NCBI GenBank assembly: GCA_013044385.1
Contig: JABEUN010000050.1
Span: 1-39,733 of the forward strand
DNA length: 39,733 bases
Source: Acidimicrobiaceae bacterium
GTDB taxonomy: Bacteria > Actinomycetota > Acidimicrobiia > Acidimicrobiales > Acidimicrobiaceae
Direction of reading: 5' to 3'
Position numbers and translations under genes: made by a program. Shown here piece after piece: positions 9,412-39,489 of this stretch (its first letter is position 1; every line of letters starts with the position of its first letter). The notes under the pieces were generated by a model that was given only the letters and a program-made list of their open reading frames with translations, was not told where the DNA came from and searched no databases.

Positions 9412-9486
9412 GCGCCTCTAGCTCAATGGCAGAGCAACGGACTCTTAATCCGCAGGTTCTGGGTTCGAGTCCCAGGGGGCGCACCA
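9412..9486 (+). tRNA. tRNA-Lys (anticodon CUU), likely island attachment site
   Basis: The acceptor GCGCCTC pairs with GGGGCGC (with a T-G pair). The anticodon loop CTCTTAA gives CUU. T-arm GGTTCGAGTCC, discriminator A and encoded CCA (9484-9486) are normal. An integrase gene begins 77 bases downstream in the same direction, so the 3' half of this tRNA is the probable attachment site of the downstream island. I found no second copy of the T-arm/acceptor segment elsewhere in the window. Confidence 0.97.
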
Positions 9487-9562: not shown

Positions 9563-10714
9563 GTGAGAGGGTATATTCGTAGGCGCGGGAACGACGTCTG
9601 GCAGCTCGTCGTTGATCTGCCGAAGGATCCAATCACGGGTAAGCGGCGGCAGAAGTATGTCACCGTTCACGGAGCAAAGCGTAAGGCTGACGCTGAGTTG
9701 ACCAGGCTTCTGAGTGAGGCAGGTAGCTCTCGGGCACGATCATCGACCACGTCGATGGAACATGCGATAAGGGAGTGGATTGATCTTGTCGGTCCGAACC
9801 TGTCCCCTACCACCGTGCGTGGATACTTGGGTCGGATCGACTTAGAGATTGTGCCAGCGCTTGGAATGCTTCAGTTGGCCGATGTCACCGCTGCTCACTT
9901 GGATCATCTGTATCGAGATCTGGTTGGGAGGGGATGTGCAGCGGCCTCAGTTCGTCAAGTTCATGCCATTATTCGACGATTCTTCAACCAGGCCATGAAG
10001 TGGGAATGGACGACCTCCAATCCTGCTCTGTTAGCTTCACCTCCGAAGGTGCCAACGGCCCAAATCGTAGCACCGAGCGTTGAACAGCTCCTGACGATTC
10101 TGGCGGAGGCCAAGGGTGTACATCCCCAGTGGGAGGCGTTCTTCGCCTTGGCAGCGTTGACGGGTATGCGGCGAGGGGAGCTGTGTGCACTCCACTGGGA
10201 TGACTGCCAAGATGCCGGGGTCGAGGTGACCAAGTCGTTGATCTACACACCAGCAGGAGGCACACGAGAGGCACCTACCAAGACCCACCAGGGACGATAT
10301 ATCGCACTTGATTCATTTGCAAAGGCGGTTATTGATCGTCAGAAAGAAGACCTGAGGAGCGCTGGCAAGAATCTGAGCTTGACAATGGCTGCGAATCCAT
10401 ACCTGTTTTACTCTGAGCTCGATGGAACTACACCGGTACACCCGGACAGTCCGTCAAAGCTGTTTCGGCGGATTGCCGACAGGCACGATTGGAAGGAATT
10501 ACATCTGCATAGCTTGCGCCATTTTGCGGCGACACAGTTGGTTGCAGCCGGAATGGATATCCGAACCATCGCAGGACGTCTCGGACATGCAGACGCATCG
10601 GTCACCTTGAAGGTCTATTCACATGTCGTCGAGGCAAAGAACCATGAGGCTGCGTCGATTATGGGTGCACTCCTTGCGCCATCGTCGACGAATCGGGCTG
10701 AGGGCGCCACCTAG
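9563..10714 (+). CDS. int: Tyrosine-type site-specific integrase
   Basis: Phage/ICE-type integrase of 383 residues that would catalyse integration at the tRNA. An N-terminal arm-binding segment (about 1-60, 'RRRGNDVWQLVVDLPKDPITGKRRQK') is followed by a SAM-like core-binding domain (about 64-160) and the catalytic domain (170-365). All catalytic residues are present: Arg203 (LTGMRRGE), Lys240 (PTKTHQGR), His316 and Arg319 (HSLRH), His342 (GRLGHAD) and the nucleophile Tyr352 (KVYSH). Translation appears to begin at a GTG. The gene faces the helicase operon, with only 29 bases between the two stop codons. It looks intact and likely active. Confidence 0.95.
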   Translation: MRGYIRRRGNDVWQLVVDLPKDPITGKRRQKYVTVHGAKRKADAELTRLLSEAGSSRARSSTTSMEHAIREWIDLVGPNLSPTTVRGYLGRIDLEIVPALGMLQLADVTAAHLDHLYRDLVGRGCAAASVRQVHAIIRRFFNQAMKWEWTTSNPALLASPPKVPTAQIVAPSVEQLLTILAEAKGVHPQWEAFFALAALTGMRRGELCALHWDDCQDAGVEVTKSLIYTPAGGTREAPTKTHQGRYIALDSFAKAVIDRQKEDLRSAGKNLSLTMAANPYLFYSELDGTTPVHPDSPSKLFRRIADRHDWKELHLHSLRHFAATQLVAAGMDIRTIAGRLGHADASVTLKVYSHVVEAKNHEAASIMGALLAPSSTNRAEGAT

Positions 10715-10743: not shown

Positions 10744-12804
10744 CTACTTCGCTACGTGGTAAACCCACCCAGGCAGACGGTATTCATGGTGACTCCCAAC
10801 GTTGCCCAAAGCAAGCTGGATATGTACATACCGCGCTCTACTTGCCGCAACATACTCAAGTCCAAGTGCGTCTTGTGCCAACTTTTCAGCGTCTGGACTG
10901 CTTTGCAACGGACTCGTCCTAACTCTAGGCGGGACTTTGTCAGCACGATACAGAATGCTCACGTCGACCGTATCACCCTTAGATCGGAAAATGGTCTTTA
11001 TGCACGGATAAACTACCTGCATAGTGTCGCTAGGTCGACTTTCGACCGAAAGAGACCTTTCCCTAATCCACTCCGATAGCTCTGCTGGACTTATCCCATC
11101 CTTCCGAGCCTCTCGAAAGATCCATGGTTCCAATGTCGACGCAACAGCTAACTGGCTGCTCCTTCGCTGCCTAGCACCGATATTGAGTGTCACTGAAGAC
11201 AACGCGTTGAGCGACGATTCCAAACTTGATTCAGCATGAACGTTGGACCATAGCCGACAGACGTCCCTGAGTTCGTTTAGATAGTCGTGAGTTTGTTCAT
11301 CGAAGACATGCGACTTGCCTTGCAGTAGGTCGACCCAGCGTGTGAGTCCTTTCAGGGCGTCGGATAGTGGGAGTCGATATCTAGGATCGCCAGAAACATG
11401 GGAACACGCGTTCACAAGTTTATTGAAAATTTCCTGCATTTCGGTTTTGGCTCGCTCTGAACTGAATTTTCGTGGGCGTTTGAAATGCGCTTCCAGAACC
11501 AACTGGATGCGAGTCCAGAGAAATTCACCCTCGGGGTCACACCAACTAAGAAGAAGTCTCGCTTCGCGAGTGTCAAAGGGATTAAAATCAGCTTGTAGGA
11601 AGGGTACCACTACACCTCGAGTAAGTAGGGCAGATTCAAGGCTCCGCCCTACTTGGTTGGTAGGTACCAGAAGCACGATCGAGCGTAATCGCTGGTTGGT
11701 TAGAGCGCCAACCTGAGTCAGCAAGCTCGCTCTATCACATACCAACTCATTGAGTCCACCAGTTCTAGTTTCTAGTTGAGGACTCTTGCCTTGACCAGTA
11801 AAAGTATTGAGCATGTACAGGAGTGCCTCCAAGAGTTGCCCCTCTGATCGACCGACAACAAAGAGGGGTTCCACGCCTTCGGGCAACCTCGCTGCGGTTG
11901 CGTATTTGCCGTGCCATCCATTTAAACGTTGCAGTGAATTCTGTCCGGCTACCAGCTTCACCAGAGAACGCCTATTCACCGAAAGTGTGGTCGATCTGCA
12001 TGGTACACCTAGGACTCTGAACTCTCGTTCAAGATCGCCGAGTGCTCCTCGAAAGCCCATGAGATTCTGTCCCGGATCTCCAAGACAGACAACCCGCATC
12101 TTCGTTGCAAGCTTCGCCAATACGTTCAGCTCGTGGCGCGAGGTGTCTTGGCTTTCATCGACAATCAGGTAGTCATAGTCCGACAGGCATCGTCGTGAAA
12201 TATCGTGAGAGTGCTCGAGCACCAATTGCGCATACCCTCCGGGTAGCAACCGCTCCAACCGCGCGGCCTCCGCTGCTAGATCCATCCAGATGGGCTCGAA
12301 AGTCTCACGGAGCGGTGCAACTAATGCATTTCCGAGGTCCATGTCCGAACAGAGTTGTTCTAACTTCTGTGTCAGATTTTTGCGCGTAAAGAGTTCCGGG
12401 TATTCCATACAGAGCACAGAGCCAGCACGGGCGTGGAGGTGTTCGCAGACCCAGATTGATTTTGCCGTTTTCCAGGAGGCTCCTGAAACGGAAAGTTGCT
12501 TGAGCTCTCGACGAAGAAAGGAGTCAAATGTGGCCAGAGTTAGAGCAACACCCCTGCCAGTCAATAACGAACCATTCTTAGCTTCGAATGTGATCGAGTG
12601 AGTGCGTTCTAGCTGGGACGCTAACTCACCGGTTCCGTTGCGTGTAAAGGTGAGTGCCAACACGCGCCGACCTGAGGCCACTTGGGTTCTTATCAATTCT
12701 GCGGCAGTAGTTGTCTTGCCAGTTCCGGCTTTGGAGACTGCAAGGAGTACCTGGGATGGTTCGTCCCAATTTACGATCGTACGTTGTTCGTCACTAAGAT
12801 TCAC
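10744..12804 (-). CDS. UvrD/Rep-like superfamily 1 DNA helicase
   Basis: ATP-driven 3'-5' DNA helicase by family. The 686 residues show the SF1A motifs in order: Q-motif (L3-S-D-E-Q7), Walker A 'AGTGKTT' (26-32), motif Ia 'LALTFTRNGTGELA', Walker B 'DESQD' (216-220), motif III 'GDPGQNLMGFRG' (242-253), and a C-terminal motif VI-like 'EYVAASRARYVHIQL' (about 653-667). Motif IV/V regions are divergent, and the usual UvrD 2B segment is short. There is no fused nuclease domain. The GTG start overlaps the stop of the preceding 232-aa gene (GTGA), so it is the last gene of the island operon. Stand-alone UvrD-like helicases linked to unknown partners are frequent in anti-phage and element-maintenance systems, but the role here is unproven. 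Confidence 0.88.
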   Translation of the reverse strand: MNLSDEQRTIVNWDEPSQVLLAVSKAGTGKTTTAAELIRTQVASGRRVLALTFTRNGTGELASQLERTHSITFEAKNGSLLTGRGVALTLATFDSFLRRELKQLSVSGASWKTAKSIWVCEHLHARAGSVLCMEYPELFTRKNLTQKLEQLCSDMDLGNALVAPLRETFEPIWMDLAAEAARLERLLPGGYAQLVLEHSHDISRRCLSDYDYLIVDESQDTSRHELNVLAKLATKMRVVCLGDPGQNLMGFRGALGDLEREFRVLGVPCRSTTLSVNRRSLVKLVAGQNSLQRLNGWHGKYATAARLPEGVEPLFVVGRSEGQLLEALLYMLNTFTGQGKSPQLETRTGGLNELVCDRASLLTQVGALTNQRLRSIVLLVPTNQVGRSLESALLTRGVVVPFLQADFNPFDTREARLLLSWCDPEGEFLWTRIQLVLEAHFKRPRKFSSERAKTEMQEIFNKLVNACSHVSGDPRYRLPLSDALKGLTRWVDLLQGKSHVFDEQTHDYLNELRDVCRLWSNVHAESSLESSLNALSSVTLNIGARQRRSSQLAVASTLEPWIFREARKDGISPAELSEWIRERSLSVESRPSDTMQVVYPCIKTIFRSKGDTVDVSILYRADKVPPRVRTSPLQSSPDAEKLAQDALGLEYVAASRARYVHIQLALGNVGSHHEYRLPGWVYHVAK

Positions 12805-13499
12805 TGCTCTACTTCCGGTTGGTAAGTTGCCTGGTCAATAAGTCCCGACGGTGTTGAGTGACGACGCTGGATGGCACGAATACCACTCACCTCTTTGTCG
12901 GCCACGCGACTTAGTACTACGCGGGCTCTCACCGTCAAAAACCGAAAAGTGTCATCCACGTCAGCGGTCTCATCATGGAGTAACTCGCGATACACTCCTT
13001 CGTCATAGTCACAAGCAAAGGCAAGCTCCTCTCGTGCCCAGCGCCTAAGATCACGCACTCCCACTGTCAGATACATGCGCCATGAGGTAGAGGCGGCGGG
13101 CGTCTCGAGGTCAGCGAGTATTTCCCTTGCTCGTCTCTGAATAGAACGACCGAGGTGGTCTCGAATTGCCTTCTGGGTCGATGATCGACCTTTCTGCTGC
13201 AGCCAAGCTTGAACGACGTCCCAATCCCCCGCAGAGATATCGACGACATCGCCAGAGTCGTGAATCCTAAGAGAACCTTCCTCGATACGAAGGTTGCTGA
13301 TCTGTGCCGGCGAGAGATAATACTTCGTTAGCAGAAGAAGGAGGCCTTCCGAGCCTAGGTCTCTTGCAGCCTGGAGGATTGCAGAGCGGGCGATCATCGG
13401 CAGGATCAGAATGCCCTGGGCCAGATCCTTGTCATTCGCACCGACCACCTTTGGGCCTTTGGAGATTCTCCCCCAGGAGCGTGTTGTCGTTTCACCCAT
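12801..13499 (-). CDS. Tyrosine-recombinase-like protein lacking catalytic residues
   Basis: 232 residues, no firm family. The segment 'EGLLLLLTKYYLSPAQISNLRIEEGSLRIHD' (51-81) has the helix-turn-helix-beta rhythm of the tyrosine recombinase catalytic domain ('LLLLTGLRisEaLaLrwedI'), but the catalytic Arg of TGxR is missing. 'GVRDLRRWAREEL' (147-159) resembles HDLRHxxATxL with His changed to Arg. 'RELLHDETADVDDTFRFLT' (171-189) sits where 'xLLGHxSxxTTxxYxH' is expected, with Phe instead of Tyr. I infer a catalytically dead recombinase fold. The ATG has a good site (GAGGTGA). The gene follows the 530-aa gene after 112 bases and overlaps the helicase start. The resemblance is read by eye and needs a profile search. 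Confidence 0.6.
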   Translation of the reverse strand: MGETTTRSWGRISKGPKVVGANDKDLAQGILILPMIARSAILQAARDLGSEGLLLLLTKYYLSPAQISNLRIEEGSLRIHDSGDVVDISAGDWDVVQAWLQQKGRSSTQKAIRDHLGRSIQRRAREILADLETPAASTSWRMYLTVGVRDLRRWAREELAFACDYDEGVYRELLHDETADVDDTFRFLTVRARVVLSRVADKEVSGIRAIQRRHSTPSGLIDQATYQPEVEQ

Positions 13500-13611
13500 G
13501 ATTCACCTCGCGAATCAGTTCCGATTGCCCTTCGGCGGTCGATGTGTAGGAGGTAACACGGCACTCGTTGCCCCAGAGATCGTAGGCAGCTTGAACCTCC
13601 TCTAGCCAAGC

Positions 13612-15204
13612 TCACCAGTAGTTAGAGCGAGTGAGCCTCGACCGGTGGCCAAGGAGTGCAGTGACAACCTCCCTATCATTGCCGCACAAGTTGGTACGCA
13701 GAAGCTGCACAAAGGCACTTCGAGTGAAGCGGGCACTTTCTCGGGGTATCGGCAGCCCCGTCTTCTTCTCGAACTTCACACAGCATCTGTCAATTAGATT
13801 GCTGAGATCATCGCGCAACCAGTTGGGCGGGTCATCGCTGGTTCTCTCAGGAAGCCATTCACGCGTAATATTGAAAAGTTCGATCCAGGCTTGGGCGAGA
13901 AACAAACTGCTCCGGCCGGTCTTGTTAGAAGCGCTTCGAACGTGCAAAAGGACGCCACCAACGTCATCTATCCAACATGTGCGATCGAGGCCGAGTACCA
14001 CCGATGCCCGAGCAGCGGTGACAAATTGCAAAATTGCGAGGCGACTGAGCTGCTCATCTTCTCCCTCCAGCAGTTCGGGCAGGGCCGCAAGGAGTTCGCG
14101 AAGGGTGGACGGCTTGGGACTCAGATCTTCCCGTACACCCTTGTAGAGTTGGTGCTGGTTGTACGCCCCCGCAATGCCTTGGGGAAATGAAGTGACACGA
14201 GCCCCTTGAGCGTTGACTCGCTTGAGCCAGGAAATGAAGGGTTGAAATCCACTCATCACTTTCCGAAAGGCCCTTTGGCGAGCCGCATCTTGGGACAACA
14301 TCTCGTACTCGAATAGGTCATCGAACAATGACCTAGCGTCATCGAGCAGCCGCTGGTCAAATGCCTTCGCGCCCTTCTCGTCAAGCTGTACGGCTCCTAG
14401 TAAAGCTTGGGAGGGGTACAAAGTTGCGGGATGTGAAAACCCTAGTACGTCTGAAAGTATTGAAAAGTGACGAAATACCGGTTGCACTGATGACCATGTT
14501 GGTAAACGTGCTGGCGCACCGTATACGAACACTGCGCAGGCCTCACCGGACAACTTTGCCGCGTACTCTACTGGTGTGGGGCTAGGTAGCTGATCTCGAT
14601 TGCGTGATCCCGCACTCCTAGCTAGGTCCTCAAGTAGTTTCGGCAGTACTCCCGCCTCAATGACTTCACGGATAAATGGCTTGCCTCGAAGGAGAACCTG
14701 TTTTGCGGCTCCTATGGCGTCGAGTTCGCCACTTGGCAGTGCGAGCATCTGCGGTGCCCCAAGCAATTCCAAAAGCGAAACGTAGGAGAGTGGAACTTGC
14801 CCGTCGAATCGAAGTTTGAGGATCTCTAGGGTGGTCCCCAGGCAGACTGGATGAGGTACAAAAGTACAAATTTCTCCCAAGATGTCCCTGTAACTCGCGT
14901 AGGTCTGAGGATCGGGAGCCGCAGTATCCAATCTTCCATTGAGATCCTTCACACACTGGGTGCGATTGAAAAACTCAAGAATCCTCGGTTTCGAATACCC
15001 CTCGCACACCTCGCAGGCAAGAAGTGCAGAAATCCAAGTCCGTTGCGAAGGAGCACGTGACCAATCGGAATGCCTCCAAGCATTTCCGTCTGCCTCCACA
15101 AAGTCATCTAGCCGGGTGCCTAGGTCATCAATAGAGCATGCAAGTATCCTCGCGCCCTCCGCAGCCATTCTTGAACGAACGCCAGAGTCGATTGGAGGAA
15201 TCAT
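13612..15204 (-). CDS. Large protein with C-terminal tyrosine-recombinase-like domain
   Basis: 530 residues. Residues 1-360 are unrecognised and mostly helical ('ISALLACEVCEGYSKPRILEFF', cysteines at 64 and 67). Residues about 385-530 look like a tyrosine recombinase catalytic domain: 'LQFVTAARASVVLGLD' for TGxRxSExLxL (Arg399), a beta-hairpin lysine in 'SASNKTGRSS' (Lys428), 'ARFTRSAFVQLL' for HxLRHxxAxxL (Arg495 kept, first His replaced), 'ALLGHRSRLTRSNYW' with His520 and Tyr529 one residue before the C-terminus. Five of six catalytic positions are thus present. The ATG overlaps the stop of the 144-aa gene (ATGA). Function inferred: DNA binding or strand exchange together with the 232-aa protein and the helicase. 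Confidence 0.65.
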   Translation of the reverse strand: MIPPIDSGVRSRMAAEGARILACSIDDLGTRLDDFVEADGNAWRHSDWSRAPSQRTWISALLACEVCEGYSKPRILEFFNRTQCVKDLNGRLDTAAPDPQTYASYRDILGEICTFVPHPVCLGTTLEILKLRFDGQVPLSYVSLLELLGAPQMLALPSGELDAIGAAKQVLLRGKPFIREVIEAGVLPKLLEDLARSAGSRNRDQLPSPTPVEYAAKLSGEACAVFVYGAPARLPTWSSVQPVFRHFSILSDVLGFSHPATLYPSQALLGAVQLDEKGAKAFDQRLLDDARSLFDDLFEYEMLSQDAARQRAFRKVMSGFQPFISWLKRVNAQGARVTSFPQGIAGAYNQHQLYKGVREDLSPKPSTLRELLAALPELLEGEDEQLSRLAILQFVTAARASVVLGLDRTCWIDDVGGVLLHVRSASNKTGRSSLFLAQAWIELFNITREWLPERTSDDPPNWLRDDLSNLIDRCCVKFEKKTGLPIPRESARFTRSAFVQLLRTNLCGNDREVVTALLGHRSRLTRSNYW

Positions 15205-15635
15205 ATTGGCCTACCCTTCCCGCGGCGGACACACTCAAATTCGAAGTGTCGACCCCGTTTGATCAGGTACACGTCGATTGGTATTGACTTACCGACAGTT
15301 GGATCGAGACGAGCATCTATGAGCATCCGACGTAGTCCTTTGGTGAAGTCAAGCTCTAGACGGCCTGCTCGAGTTTTACGTACCACAACGGTCGGAGCGT
15401 TCAGAACGAACTTCGTAGTGAGTTTCAATAAATTCGGGGAAGCAAGCACGCACAGAGCCTGGAGATCACGTAGCCCGTCTAATGAGGTAACGGATATACG
15501 CCTTCCGGCCGTAATGCGACGGTCAAAAGGTCCCTTGACTGTGTTCCTACTGGTGACAGCTTCGTTTTTCCCAGTGCCTCCAGCAGGCTGAAGATCAAGT
15601 TCGATCACCATGTCAAACAAAGGATCAATTGACAC
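15201..15635 (-). CDS. Unknown protein of the island operon
   Basis: 144 residues, not recognised. It contains alternating hydrophobic segments ('LCVLASPNLLKLTTKFVL', 'TVVVRKTRAGRLELDFTKGLRRML', 'IPIDVYLIKRGRHFEFECVRRG') consistent with a small alpha/beta domain, and a basic C-terminus (RRGKGRPI). The start is a GTG with a textbook ribosome binding site AAGGAG five bases upstream. Its stop overlaps the ATG of the 530-aa gene, so it is the obligate upstream partner in the operon. Nothing in it indicates an enzyme. Confidence 0.7.
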   Translation of the reverse strand: MSIDPLFDMVIELDLQPAGGTGKNEAVTSRNTVKGPFDRRITAGRRISVTSLDGLRDLQALCVLASPNLLKLTTKFVLNAPTVVVRKTRAGRLELDFTKGLRRMLIDARLDPTVGKSIPIDVYLIKRGRHFEFECVRRGKGRPI

Positions 15636-15881
15636 GGAAACTCCTTTCTTACATTCCGAACAAGAGATGGAGAACTGTAGGAAACCAAGGCTCGCATGTG
15701 AGCCACCATGGACAATGAGCCTTCGGCAGAGAACGCCGAGTCCAAAAAGAGGCTTACCCGCAGCACGATTGCACGTCAGTGGCTCGTTCCTACGGCGGTA
15801 GGTGCGATGCCCCCTGCCATAAAGGCGCGAAGTCTGCCGACAGGTTTTTTGCGTACTTCGAGCTGGCGGGACGAGATCTGC

Positions 15882-16067
15882 CTAATACACGCCTACCTTT
15901 TCACCAGCAGCCCAAGAGACAAGAGCTGCACGCGAAAAGACCCATCTCCCATTCGGCGCTCTGTTCGCTGGGATTATGCCATCCCTTGCGAGCCCTTGCA
16001 CGTGTGTTCTGCTGCGCCGCAAGAAGCATGCAGCCTGGTCTGAATCCATGATCTCAGGAAAATCCAT
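15882..16067 (-). CDS. Small excisionase-like helix-turn-helix protein
   Basis: 61 residues resembling the MerR-type winged helix of excisionase/HTH_17 proteins: 'DSDQAACFLRRSRTHVQGLARDGIIPANRAPNGRWVFSRAALVSWA'. This corresponds to the usual pattern 'TveEAAelLgvsrstVyrLardGrLPavrvGgrwrfrradLeaWl'. The ATG has a very strong ribosome binding site (AGGAGGT, four bases from ATG). It lies 246 bases upstream of the 144-aa gene in the same direction and could be the first gene of the operon, acting as recombination directionality factor for the island integrase or as operon regulator. Confidence 0.75.
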   Translation of the reverse strand: MDFPEIMDSDQAACFLRRSRTHVQGLARDGIIPANRAPNGRWVFSRAALVSWAAGEKVGVY

Positions 16068-17342
16068 TGTTACCTCCTGCCTCGGCCGCCAACCTGTCGG
16101 GTGACTGAGTCCGAGTGCCGTCCTTCGGTTTTAACTCTCCATGTAGCTGTCGGACCATTGCTTGCACAACTTGAAGACAATTCCACTACCTCTATTGACA
16201 GCTCAAACTAGGATGCCTTGTACAATTTCTTCACAAACCTAATGTCCAGAGTTTCGTCGAGTTGCGCTTTCCTATGTGCAAACAAAACGCAATCACCATG
16301 AATACATCTGCTTACGACGTCGGACATATCGTCTTCGGTGATCCCTGTCTGGGAAAGTCCGCTGTTGCGATTGACATCGTCGACAAGCTTGTGACTCAGA
16401 GAATAGATGTGCAGGTGTGCAGCTTCCATGACCTTCGAATTTGGCCAGGACGTCGAGCACGTGATAGGTAGGCATCGGCTCTGCGTCGGCGTTGGTACTT
16501 CGCTGCGGTCGCATGGCACCGGCTGCTGGTAGTTGGCGGGCACTTGGTACCGAACACCGGGGTAGTTAGCTATGGGAACCGGTCCTAGCTCTGTAGAGGT
16601 CTTTCCGCTTGGACTCTCCAGGCTACGTTGTTCTGCCGTTTGAAACGATTCTTAACTTCAACCCCACTCGGCGCCGAGCAAATAAGTCCGTTGTTGAGCC
16701 GTTTATCGTTGGAGTAATCTGGAGCAGCCACTCAAGGAAGGAACCTCGCGTGTCATATCGAGAATCTGCTTCAAGATGCATGGTCACCGAGTCGGGTTAG
16801 GGATCCGTCAAGGATCTTGCTAACTCATCTGCCCTACCCTGAGGCGCTGGTTCCGTTGGGCACGATAGGAAGAAATCCCTTCGTGACAACGAAGAGGGTG
16901 CAGGGCTCACAAAGAGAGATGGAGTCAAATGGGCAGCCCATACTTACGGGGCCGGAGATGATGGCCACTGCCAATTACGCGTCGGTGCATCACTACTCGA
17001 AATTGCCACGTAGCGGCACCTCCTTCGCTGACACTAGCTTGCGGAGTTAGTCGTAGGCGGGCGGCGGGCCCCTTGCCAAAATTCCATCCCTATGTCCAAG
17101 GAGGAGAGCCTACGGAAACACGTCGCCAAGTCACTGACGTCAGGAACAGCCGTCATGGTGGGAAGCGTGGCGTACTTTCGGAATCGTGAGAAGCATACTT
17201 TCGGACTCAAATGGTGAGCACAAGCAATACCAGCCATGAATACACGGGCCATACCTTACAAGGTGACAAATCGGGATGTTGCGCACCTATCGTACAACAT
17301 CATCCTGTACTGTTCACCTTGACATCGACTAGATTGCGTTGT
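16068..17342. other. Gene-poor interval of about 1.3 kb inside the island
   Basis: No convincing gene was found. A minus-strand frame at 16208-16543 (111 codons) contains a helical stretch ('EDDMSDVVSRCIHGDCVLF') but no ribosome binding site and no recognisable family; it may be a relic. A TTGACA at 16195-16200 has no good -10. TTGACA at 17319-17324 lies just before the XRE gene and could be its -35, although the matching -10 (TGTGAC) is poor and falls on the start codon. Confidence 0.4.
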
Positions 17343-17744
17343 GTGACAAAAAAAGATCAACTGGCAGAGATGATCGATGCCGCTGTTACCAAACGCGGCT
17401 TACCTCAATCCGAAGTCGCGAGATTGGCTGAGGTCGATACTTCTAGTCTGAGCAGGTGGAGACGAGGGGAACAGGGTTGTCCGGCACATCGCGTGGAAAA
17501 GCTTGCGATAGCACTCCGTCTGGACTCAATGAGCGCTGATACCCTTCTGAAACTCGCACTAGAAGTCGAGAACGAGAACCGAAAACAAAGGGAGGTGCTT
17601 CGATCTCCAGGGTTCCGTAACGAATTGCGGGACCTTAAGAAATCGGTGAGCCACTTAGAGGAGCAGATCAAGCAAATCCAAGAGTACTTACAGATTCCAC
17701 CACCTCAGCAGGCACAGCTGGACCTGCAACCACCCCCGCACTAG
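17343..17744 (+). CDS. XRE-family helix-turn-helix regulator with C-terminal coiled coil
   Basis: The frame is open from 17211, but the conserved part begins at a GTG at 17343 ('VTKKDQLAEMIDAAV'), giving 133 residues. The Cro/C1-type HTH is 'KRGLPQSEVARLAEVDTSSLSRWRRGE', followed by 'RVEKLAIALRLDS', the usual fourth and fifth helices. The C-terminal half (about 75-120) is a charged heptad-rich region ('RDLKKSVSHLEEQIKQIQEYL') likely to form a coiled-coil dimer, then a proline/glutamine tail. It is oriented away from the helicase operon and could be the island regulator; the target is unknown. Confidence 0.8.
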   Translation: MTKKDQLAEMIDAAVTKRGLPQSEVARLAEVDTSSLSRWRRGEQGCPAHRVEKLAIALRLDSMSADTLLKLALEVENENRKQREVLRSPGFRNELRDLKKSVSHLEEQIKQIQEYLQIPPPQQAQLDLQPPPH

Positions 17745-18210
17745 CGGTAGCCAGTAGGTGAGACACTAACGATGGAACGGACTAAAGGGTCACGAATGCG
17801 ACGCTCAACGCGTATAAGCCCGTTAGGAATGGCGGAGAACTGCATGCTGCGATCGTTCGCCAACGAAAGGACTACCTCGGGGTCTTTGATGTTGCTTTCG
17901 CCATTTGCGTCAGCACGGTAATCTCCATTTGCTGACGTCGGGCGGGGCCACGGACGTACATTCATTCGGTGGCAGAAAACTTGATTGGAATTATTGCCGA
18001 CTCGCTTCAGTCCTGACACTTTGAACGATCCATTTGAAACCTGAGTGACCCTTAGCTACTGCAGGAGTAGCAATAACAACTGCACTCGATTTGAGCATCA
18101 CTTGATAAGCCATCTCACTGGCCCCAGAGAGCACGGAATCAGCGCTGCGCTGGGTTTCGGCCACAACTGATCATAAGATACCCAGTTCAGGGGCTTCTGC
18201 GTCGTTCCGG
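17745..18210. other. Gene-poor interval, probable rearrangement border
   Basis: No gene with support was seen. The right edge is where the Ada-AlkA reading frame stops making sense (about 18210), so this interval may contain a deletion or insertion junction. A 92-codon minus-strand frame (17741-18019) has no recognisable features. Confidence 0.4.
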
Positions 18211-19074
18211 TTATAGCTGACGGCATCGGGCCACGGCCGTCGACAGGTCACGCAAGTCCGATAGACGCAGGTCTGCTTCCACGAATGCTGGTCCGCCGGC
18301 ATCAGCACTATCGGGCGTCAGGCTAGCCACGCAGTACCCGTTTGCCAAACGCAGACTACGAGTGTAGGTCGAGCCCTCGAAGGACTCGACGCCGGCCGCC
18401 GCCCTCGCCGAGAGGTAGTGGAACACAGACGCCGAGCTAAAGGGTCGTCTCGCCGGGAGCCGAAGGTGGACCGTCTGAATAGTCCGACCCGGATGGTTAT
18501 TTACCGAGCTCCCAGGCGCCCGCCGCCGAAGTCCGCTTGGAGTATCGGCGAATACCTCACGAATCGTCTCGTTGTACTGGCGAACACTTGCGAACCCTGC
18601 TGCGAAGGCGACATCAGTGATGGACAGGTCGGTGGTCTCAAGAAGAATCCGAGCGGTCTGACTACGCTGAGCTCGAGCGAGTGCGAGTGGACCCGTTCCT
18701 ATCTCTGCCGTGACGACACGATTTATCTGCCGCACGCTATATCCAAGACGTCTCGCCAGTCCTTCCACCCCCTCCCTATCGACGATGCCATCACGTATCA
18801 ACCTCATGGCCCGGGCAACTACATCTGCTCGCACGTTCCACTCCGGCGACCCGGGCGTGGCGTCTGGCCTGCAGCGTCTACATGAGCGAAGTCCGGCTTG
18901 CTGGGCCGAAGCGGCCGATGCGTAGAATCGCACGTTCTCCCGTTTCGGTGTCTGGGCGGGACAGCTCGGCCGACAGTAGATACCAGTCGACAGGACACCG
19001 ACAAAAAACCAACCATCGAACCGGGTATCTCTGCTCTGGGATGCCTGGTAACAACGTTCTGGATCATCTAGCAC
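18211..19074 (-). pseudogene. Ada-AlkA fusion, truncated before the glycosylase domain
   Basis: DNA alkylation repair protein that normally joins a methylphosphotriester sensor, an AraC-type activator and an AlkA 3-methyladenine glycosylase (about 490 residues). Here only 287 residues remain. Present: the zinc domain with all four cysteines (Cys34, Cys38, Cys65, Cys68 in 'YCRPSCP' and 'CRRCRP'), two AraC-type HTH motifs ('GLARRLGYSVRQINRVV', 'SITDVAFAAGFASVRQYNE'), and the AlkA N-terminal domain ('VHLRLPARRPF' to 'DLSTAVARCRQL'). The frame ends at TAA where the family continues into the glycosylase domain. I could not find the missing HhH-GPD part in any frame downstream. The sensor and activator part may still be functional; glycosylase activity is lost. 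Confidence 0.8.
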
Positions 19075-39029: not shown

Positions 39030-39489
39030 TGTCAAGCTTTTTGAGACAATTCTTTCAATTATTTACTGAGTCAGTGACCTCCTTCACCGGTTCGTTGATC
39101 CACGCGACGGTCGGAAGCGCCGGTGGGGTGGGAACTTTGTGAACAAACCGTTCGGGGTGTTCTGCGTAGGCGTCGAGCAGGACCGTCTCACGTCGTTCAC
39201 GAACCTTTTCAGCTCGTCCGTAGTGGACATCGGCTGGAGTGTGATATCCGATGCCGGAGTGACGATGATGTTCGTTGTACCAAGACATGAAGCGTCGAAA
39301 ATGGGCCTGAGCGTCTTCGAAACTGCCGAATCGATTGGGAAAATCGGGCCGGTACTTGAGGGTTCGGAACTGGCTCTCTGAATAGGGATTGTCATTACTT
39401 ACATGAGGACGGCTGTGGGATTTGGTGACTCCGAGATCCGCCAGTAGGTGCGCTACTCCTTTGGCGATCATTGGTGATCCCCGGACGCT
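39030..39489 (-). mobile_element. IS3-family element remnant (right end and C-terminal transposase)
   Basis: The right terminus reads TGTCAAGCTTTTTGAGACA from 39030 on the plus strand and directly abuts livM. The transposase OrfB frame (stop at 39055) covers the C-terminal part of the rve integrase core: 'GVTKSHSRPHVSNDNPYSESQFRTLKYRPDFP' with the catalytic Glu, then 'FMSWYNEHHRHSGIGYHTPADVHYG'. The usual ATG at 39471 is internal. The upstream part with 'HADRG' (a catalytic Asp) is lost: sense ends at about 39489 at 'RGSP', where an IS110-type 3' end begins. The element is not functional by itself. Confidence 0.85.

Follow-up and report, generated by a model that had tools for sequence, protein, structure and literature searches.

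The window analysed here is a 39,733-nucleotide stretch of the genome of an Acidimicrobiaceae bacterium (GenBank assembly GCA_013044385.1, contig JABEUN010000050.1), in which a cassette of five genes lies on the minus strand between positions 10,744 and 16,067. In order of transcription these encode an HTH_17 excisionase-like protein of 61 amino acids (aa) (15882..16067; PF12728 5.7e-09), a 144-aa protein with a predicted MraZ fold (15201..15635), a 530-aa protein predicted to be a large, divergent tyrosine recombinase (13612..15204), a conserved 232-aa protein (12801..13499) and a 686-aa UvrD-type superfamily 1 (SF1) helicase (10744..12804). A first-pass annotation, made from the sequence alone, had proposed the last four as an operon with a small excisionase-like gene upstream. 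The operon is real, as all five open-reading frames were confirmed at the coordinates it gave and the gene order recurs in other genomes, and the 61-aa product is indeed an HTH_17 protein. The 144-aa and 530-aa genes overlap by four bases (ATGA, 15201-15204), as do the 232-aa and 686-aa genes (GTGA, 12801-12804), the 61-aa and 144-aa genes are separated by 246 bp, and the 530-aa and 232-aa genes by an apparent 112 bp. On the plus strand, a conventional 383-aa tyrosine integrase (9563..10714; PF00589 2.6e-22, phrog_1 integrase 2.2e-69) starts 76 bp past a tRNA-Lys(CTT) gene (9412..9486, plus strand; ARAGORN), the presumed attachment gene of the island, which bears out the tRNA-anchored integrase of the first reading; it is convergent with the operon and lies outside it.

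The complete order of HTH_17, MraZ-like, recombinase, 232-like and helicase genes is found in genome G015 (loci L015/L016), and the same five-gene order is found in G038 across two contigs (L022 and L044), with the HTH_17 gene in two copies. It is kept as far as the contig extends in G127 (L017) and G021 (L013), and G327 (L018) keeps it too, with a divergently oriented HTH_17 gene and a contig that reaches only into the start of the helicase. Two distant loci, L020 and L041, carry a small gene, a recombinase, a gene in the 232-aa position and a helicase or helicase-like gene with a 4-base overlap at every junction; their small proteins are assigned from position, length and faint similarity, and no Walker A motif is visible in the last gene of L041. 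Because the gene order is the same in other genomes, with 4-base overlaps even at ~21% identity, the operon is not a chance arrangement, and on these comparisons the cassette is a conserved five-gene island operon of related actinobacteria; conserved co-occurrence, the check that the first-pass annotation had itself put forward, is borne out. Such strict order and overlapping start and stop codons in distant members suggest a fixed stoichiometry of the products.

In whole-genome searches, with the window's own genome included in the counts, the family gave relatives in 5 of 42 genomes (one copy being a decayed remnant), the order in 6 of 397, a class sample in 2 of 395 and a phylum sample in 1 of 396. 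A broader profile gave six strong matches among 336 genomes of the order, so that relatives are rare, at ~2% of the genomes of that order. Named records among the relatives are a Ferrimicrobium metagenome-assembled genome (MAG) and two 'Actinomycetes bacterium' MAGs. Within the family, the specific helicase (E < 1e-20) occurred in no genome without the recombinase, and searches of plasmid, phage and viral-contig collections returned no cassette relatives. Weak matches in the order (G200 and G131, E ~1e-4) covered only the last 40-50 profile positions and were taken as ordinary integrases.

None of the three middle proteins (144, 530 and 232 aa) matches a family in Pfam, NCBIfam, PADLOC or PHROGs, and none of six members of the 530-aa family matches Phage_integrase. 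The AlphaFold model of the 530-aa protein (mean predicted local distance difference test score, pLDDT, 77.7) nevertheless matches XerH over residues 356-525 (Z 12.8, root-mean-square deviation 3.3, 153 residues), followed by Cre, HP1, P2, lambda and others. Looser structural matches extend back to about residue 218, therefore a core-binding part is likely in this model, whilst the ~215 extra N-terminal residues are helical and without an assigned match. R399, K428, R495, H520 and Y529 do not vary among the seven aligned members, including L020 and L041 (~21% identity). The protein thus resembles XerH/Cre-type recombinases in how residues 356-525 fold and in its R-K-R-H-Y set, yet differs in its low identity (~10-15%), in its added N-terminal helices and in box II, where most members have Arg instead of the His and distant ones have Tyr or a Met-Thr-Arg-type sequence. 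On its modelled fold and conserved residues, it belongs to the tyrosine recombinases as a large, divergent protein whose catalytic set is complete.

An in-frame TGA at 13612-13614, overlooked in the first-pass annotation, truncates this gene by 39 codons. Behind it lies a severed piece of 39 codons and a stop (13492..13611, minus strand), translated as AWLEEVQAAYDLWGNECRVTSYTSTAEGQSELIREVNHG (beginning AWLEEVQAAYDLWG and ending NHG), which is homologous to the C-terminus of relatives and ends at a TGA, with an 8-base overlap into the beginning of the 232-aa gene. The apparent 112-bp gap between the 530-aa and 232-aa genes is therefore a product of the premature TGA, so that of the tight packing first described the 4-base overlaps stand, whereas the supposed spacer is coding sequence. 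The TGA sits two codons past the catalytic tyrosine, at a position where 5 of 6 relatives have Arg, within NYWRPWANEV (L013), NYVRPWPEEIDEAYRKLG (L022), SYLRAWPEELVGAYRRW (L017), NYLRPN (L016) and NYVRAWPDEIRESYSRW (L019), and the sixth, L018, has Gln. Lesions are also present among relatives: L018 has a lone TAG nonsense stop, L019 is interrupted by an IS21-type insertion and L021 is decayed. Recoding of the TGA was rejected because 5 of 6 relatives have Arg and the stops in L018 and L019 have ordinary explanations. From the aligned sequences, the TGA of the window reads as a nonsense mutation or else a sequence error; the recombinase, lacking its last 39 codons after the catalytic tyrosine, may be impaired, and the copy of the cassette in this genome is probably damaged.

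The 144-aa protein, which is conserved in relatives, had been described as a helix-turn-helix protein, a reading ruled out by its predicted fold: the AlphaFold model (mean pLDDT 74.7) matches five MraZ entries at Z 8.8-10.0, with the next unrelated fold at 4.8. It shares with MraZ transcription factors (PDB 9r4j, 1n0f) the whole fold of its ordered part but differs in its setting, in a recombinase operon and not beside cell-division genes, and by sequence none of seven members of its family matches Pfam MraZ. Going by the model, it is an MraZ-fold protein and a putative DNA binder. PCNA-like Foldseek matches, of low probability and TM-score, are superseded by MraZ. The 232-aa protein, kept in place in L015, L018, L017, L019 and L022/L044, has no match in PDB. 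By eye it contains LRR...LLHD...FRFL, resembling recombinase boxes II-III without the Tyr, and the idea of a dead recombinase was persuasive on that view; profile comparisons and a shuffled control gave no support, the integrase profile scoring this family no higher than shuffles, a weak control as the 530-aa family also scores low. Of the two recombinase-domain proteins of the first reading, the 530-aa protein is supported by its fold and catalytic residues, and the 232-aa assignment is unproven, having gained no support from the tests run.

The last gene was called an SF1 helicase from the outset and remains one (PF00580 2e-18), in which motifs I, II, III, V and VI can be read; its best PADLOC matches are the Gabija and DRT helicases, through the shared helicase core only. 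At the other end, the HTH_17 gene adjoins the cassette in six loci (the window, L013, L016, L017, L022 and, in divergent form, L018). The two copies in G038 are a tandem duplication upstream of the cassette (L022:527-820 and 966-1259, G038:C154), forming a 300-nt repeat with 92% identity. Just upstream of the HTH_17 gene in G015 is a perfect 12-bp tandem array, CGTACGCATCGA, of ~11 copies (L016:2610-2739, G015:C19), which was not found in the other cassette loci. Short interspersed repeats, apparently in dozens of copies, occur beside the G015 cassette (L016:2743-3032) and at many other sites in that genome.

Elements directed to tRNA genes carry an integrase at the tRNA 3' end, and this arrangement accompanies the cassette at three loci with three different tRNAs, tRNA-Lys in the window, tRNA-Glu(CTC) in L017 and tRNA-Pro(GGG) in L018. 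In L020 an ordinary tyrosine integrase lies 51 bp upstream of the cassette on the same strand, and in a member of the window's genus decayed recombinase and 232-aa genes lie beside a tRNA-Arg(CCT) (L021:2489-3412, G029:C183). Defence-type genes occur ~5-10 kb from the cassette in two genomes, AbiEii and a SoFic-like Fic gene in G015 and an Upx-like gene in L041, the last a 1068-aa frame with a partial PADLOC Upx match ~5 kb away (L041:16796-19999, G284:C4). A duplicated tRNA end, or right attachment site (attR), was not found within the window, and the right end of the island is therefore undefined; comparison of the G015 element with its genus gave a repeat-rich patchwork from which no element ends emerged. 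The 3' half of the tRNA-Lys recurs without a tRNA gene on another contig of the window's genome (G000:C74:13273-13342, L035), where it probably marks a second island at the same type of tRNA; L038 was considered as an attR flank, but its orientation is inconsistent with that. Contig C74 carries DUF499-, OLD-like ATPase- and TIR-like genes, and 72 bp of it (L035:8587-8658) are 92% identical to window positions 18142-18213, both at the ends of unrelated genes. To the right of the operon the window encodes an XRE/Cro-type regulator (17211-17744, plus strand), of which a decayed homologue occurs in G029:C31, ~1 kb from a tRNA-Lys 3'-half repeat, and near the window edge a fragment resembles by eye an IS3-type transposase integrase domain (39055-39471, minus strand).

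The first-pass annotation had viewed the operon as a candidate defence or maintenance system; with moderate confidence we move it to a probable recombination/mobility module. The cassette probably helps islands to move or replicate, because its large recombinase has the recombinase fold and keeps its active-site residues down to 21% identity, gene order and overlapping start and stop codons are strict in distant members, an excisionase-type gene adjoins it in six loci, an integrase and tRNA are present at three loci with an integrase 51 bp upstream in L020, and analogous recombinase operons exist in strand-biased circularizing integrative elements (SE) and in GInt elements. Its patchy distribution and frequent lesions are as expected of mobile DNA. 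The narrower proposition, and our preferred explanation, is that a family of integrative elements of this actinobacterial order has the cassette as its core recombination/copy-out module; we regard it as evenly balanced. Under such a scheme the MraZ-fold and HTH_17 proteins would bind the element ends or the operon control region, setting direction and expression, and the large recombinase, partnered by the 232-aa protein, would nick or exchange strands at an element site. Starting at the nick, the helicase would then unwind the DNA, so that the element is excised or replicated by copy-out, and the conventional integrase, or the large recombinase itself, would re-insert it. Only tentatively do we suggest a five-component machine combining a recombinase of non-canonical box II, an SF1 helicase and an MraZ-fold protein in helicase-driven copy-out (or defence), and matching no named system.

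Several observations weigh against a role in mobility. No integrase was found near the cassette in G015 or L041, and G027 has an integrase region at the same tRNA-Lys with 82% DNA identity, in an 85%-complete genome without a recombinase match. Neither element ends nor inverted repeats nor an attR were found in the window, where the attR search gave nothing above shuffles, and a helicase is unmentioned in the SE or GInt papers searched.

The damage to the window's own copy raises a different reading, possible if somewhat doubtful: whatever the role of the family at large, this copy is a remnant in decay that no longer functions. The in-frame TGA, the missing attR and the decayed relatives are all in keeping with decay, but every other frame is open, the catalytic residues and helicase motifs are intact, and comparison with G021 gives a nonsynonymous divergence (dN) of 0.31 with synonymous divergence (dS) saturated. 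We consider it rather unlikely, though a serious rival, that the cassette is instead cargo, an undescribed anti-phage (or anti-plasmid) defence system in which the recombinase-fold protein would cut or rearrange invader DNA, the helicase would process it, and the HTH_17 and MraZ-fold proteins would control expression. Recombination is favoured by the HTH_17 gene and the integrase nearby, the middle proteins are without a match in PADLOC 2023, and defence systems do not usually keep a conserved active site for strand exchange; these are set against the island setting, the AbiEii, Fic and Upx-like genes nearby, the DUF499- and TIR-like genes of the other island with the tRNA-Lys att-like repeat, the Gabija and DRT matches of the helicase (shared core only), and the separability of the cassette from the integrase.

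Quite improbable, in our judgement, is a maintenance or replication module, acting in dimer resolution or rolling-circle replication of an excised circle, with movement left to the conventional integrase alone. A separate, complete integrase beside the tRNA and a dedicated SF1 helicase would suit it, as would the 12-bp array upstream of the operon in G015, but that array is confined to the one locus among those compared, and neither a relaxase nor a replication initiator was identified among the genes examined.

The first-pass remark that it knew of no named system with this composition agrees with the lack of family matches for the middle three proteins, and the operon is apparently undescribed, judged from four family libraries and a literature search of limited extent. 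With Gabija GajB the cassette shares a UvrD-type helicase core, the matches being partial only, and no operon protein matched a GajA-type nuclease in PADLOC. Nor did family libraries or tblastn bear out the suggestion that the genes are pieces of a known recombinase-trio family. The Gamma-Mobile-Trio (GmtX/Y/Z), attributed to Mahata et al. (2024, cited in PMC12774648), is reportedly a recombinase-type gene set that marks genomic islands; the cassette differs from this reported composition in its helicase and MraZ-fold protein, and its proteins had no NCBIfam match, in a library whose inclusion of Gmt models was not verified.

The closest analogues are the SE (intA-tfp-intB-srap), reported only from Gammaproteobacteria (PMC9345347, PMC10214605), and GInt (ginABCD). 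In both, the operon joins two recombinases to a small accessory protein and to a protein of recombinase fold whose catalytic set is incomplete, and operon genes are needed for recombination (PMC10214605, PMC5385486): in SE the operon and srap are essential, whilst a tfp knockout was not obtained (PMC10214605), and in GInt all four genes are required for excision and integration (PMC5385486). Like SE, the cassette has overlapping or coupled operon genes, among them one for a tyrosine recombinase extended by a very long N-terminal part, another for a conserved protein to which no catalysis is assigned, and one for a small accessory protein. Unlike SE, it has a single recombinase within the operon, its small protein has an MraZ fold, a UvrD helicase is included, and in the window the conventional integrase lies outside the operon; neither sequence similarity to SE nor the 19-bp terminal repeats were found. 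With GInt and Tn554 (tnpABC) it shares several recombinase-type genes and a small extra gene in one operon, and GInt elements likewise form genomic islands, but the cassette is without a third catalytic recombinase, its gene order is different, and its small gene is MraZ-fold whereas GinD is modelled with a helix-loop-helix domain (PMC5385486). Membership of the SE, GInt or Tn554 families calls for at least two catalytic recombinases in the operon beside a small accessory gene; the window's operon has one, L020, whose same-strand integrase lies 51 bp upstream, comes nearest, and by composition the cassette is not a member, nor was a sequence link to these families found. It also provides markers for an actinobacterial island class that the annotation libraries used do not recognise. 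A helicase is present in the cassette and in neither of the named GInt and Tn554 systems; a copy-out route has been proposed for SE with its unwinding step unexplained (PMC10214605). A dedicated helicase would provide such unwinding, and an element with a helicase gene of its own next to a large recombinase would make that step directly testable.

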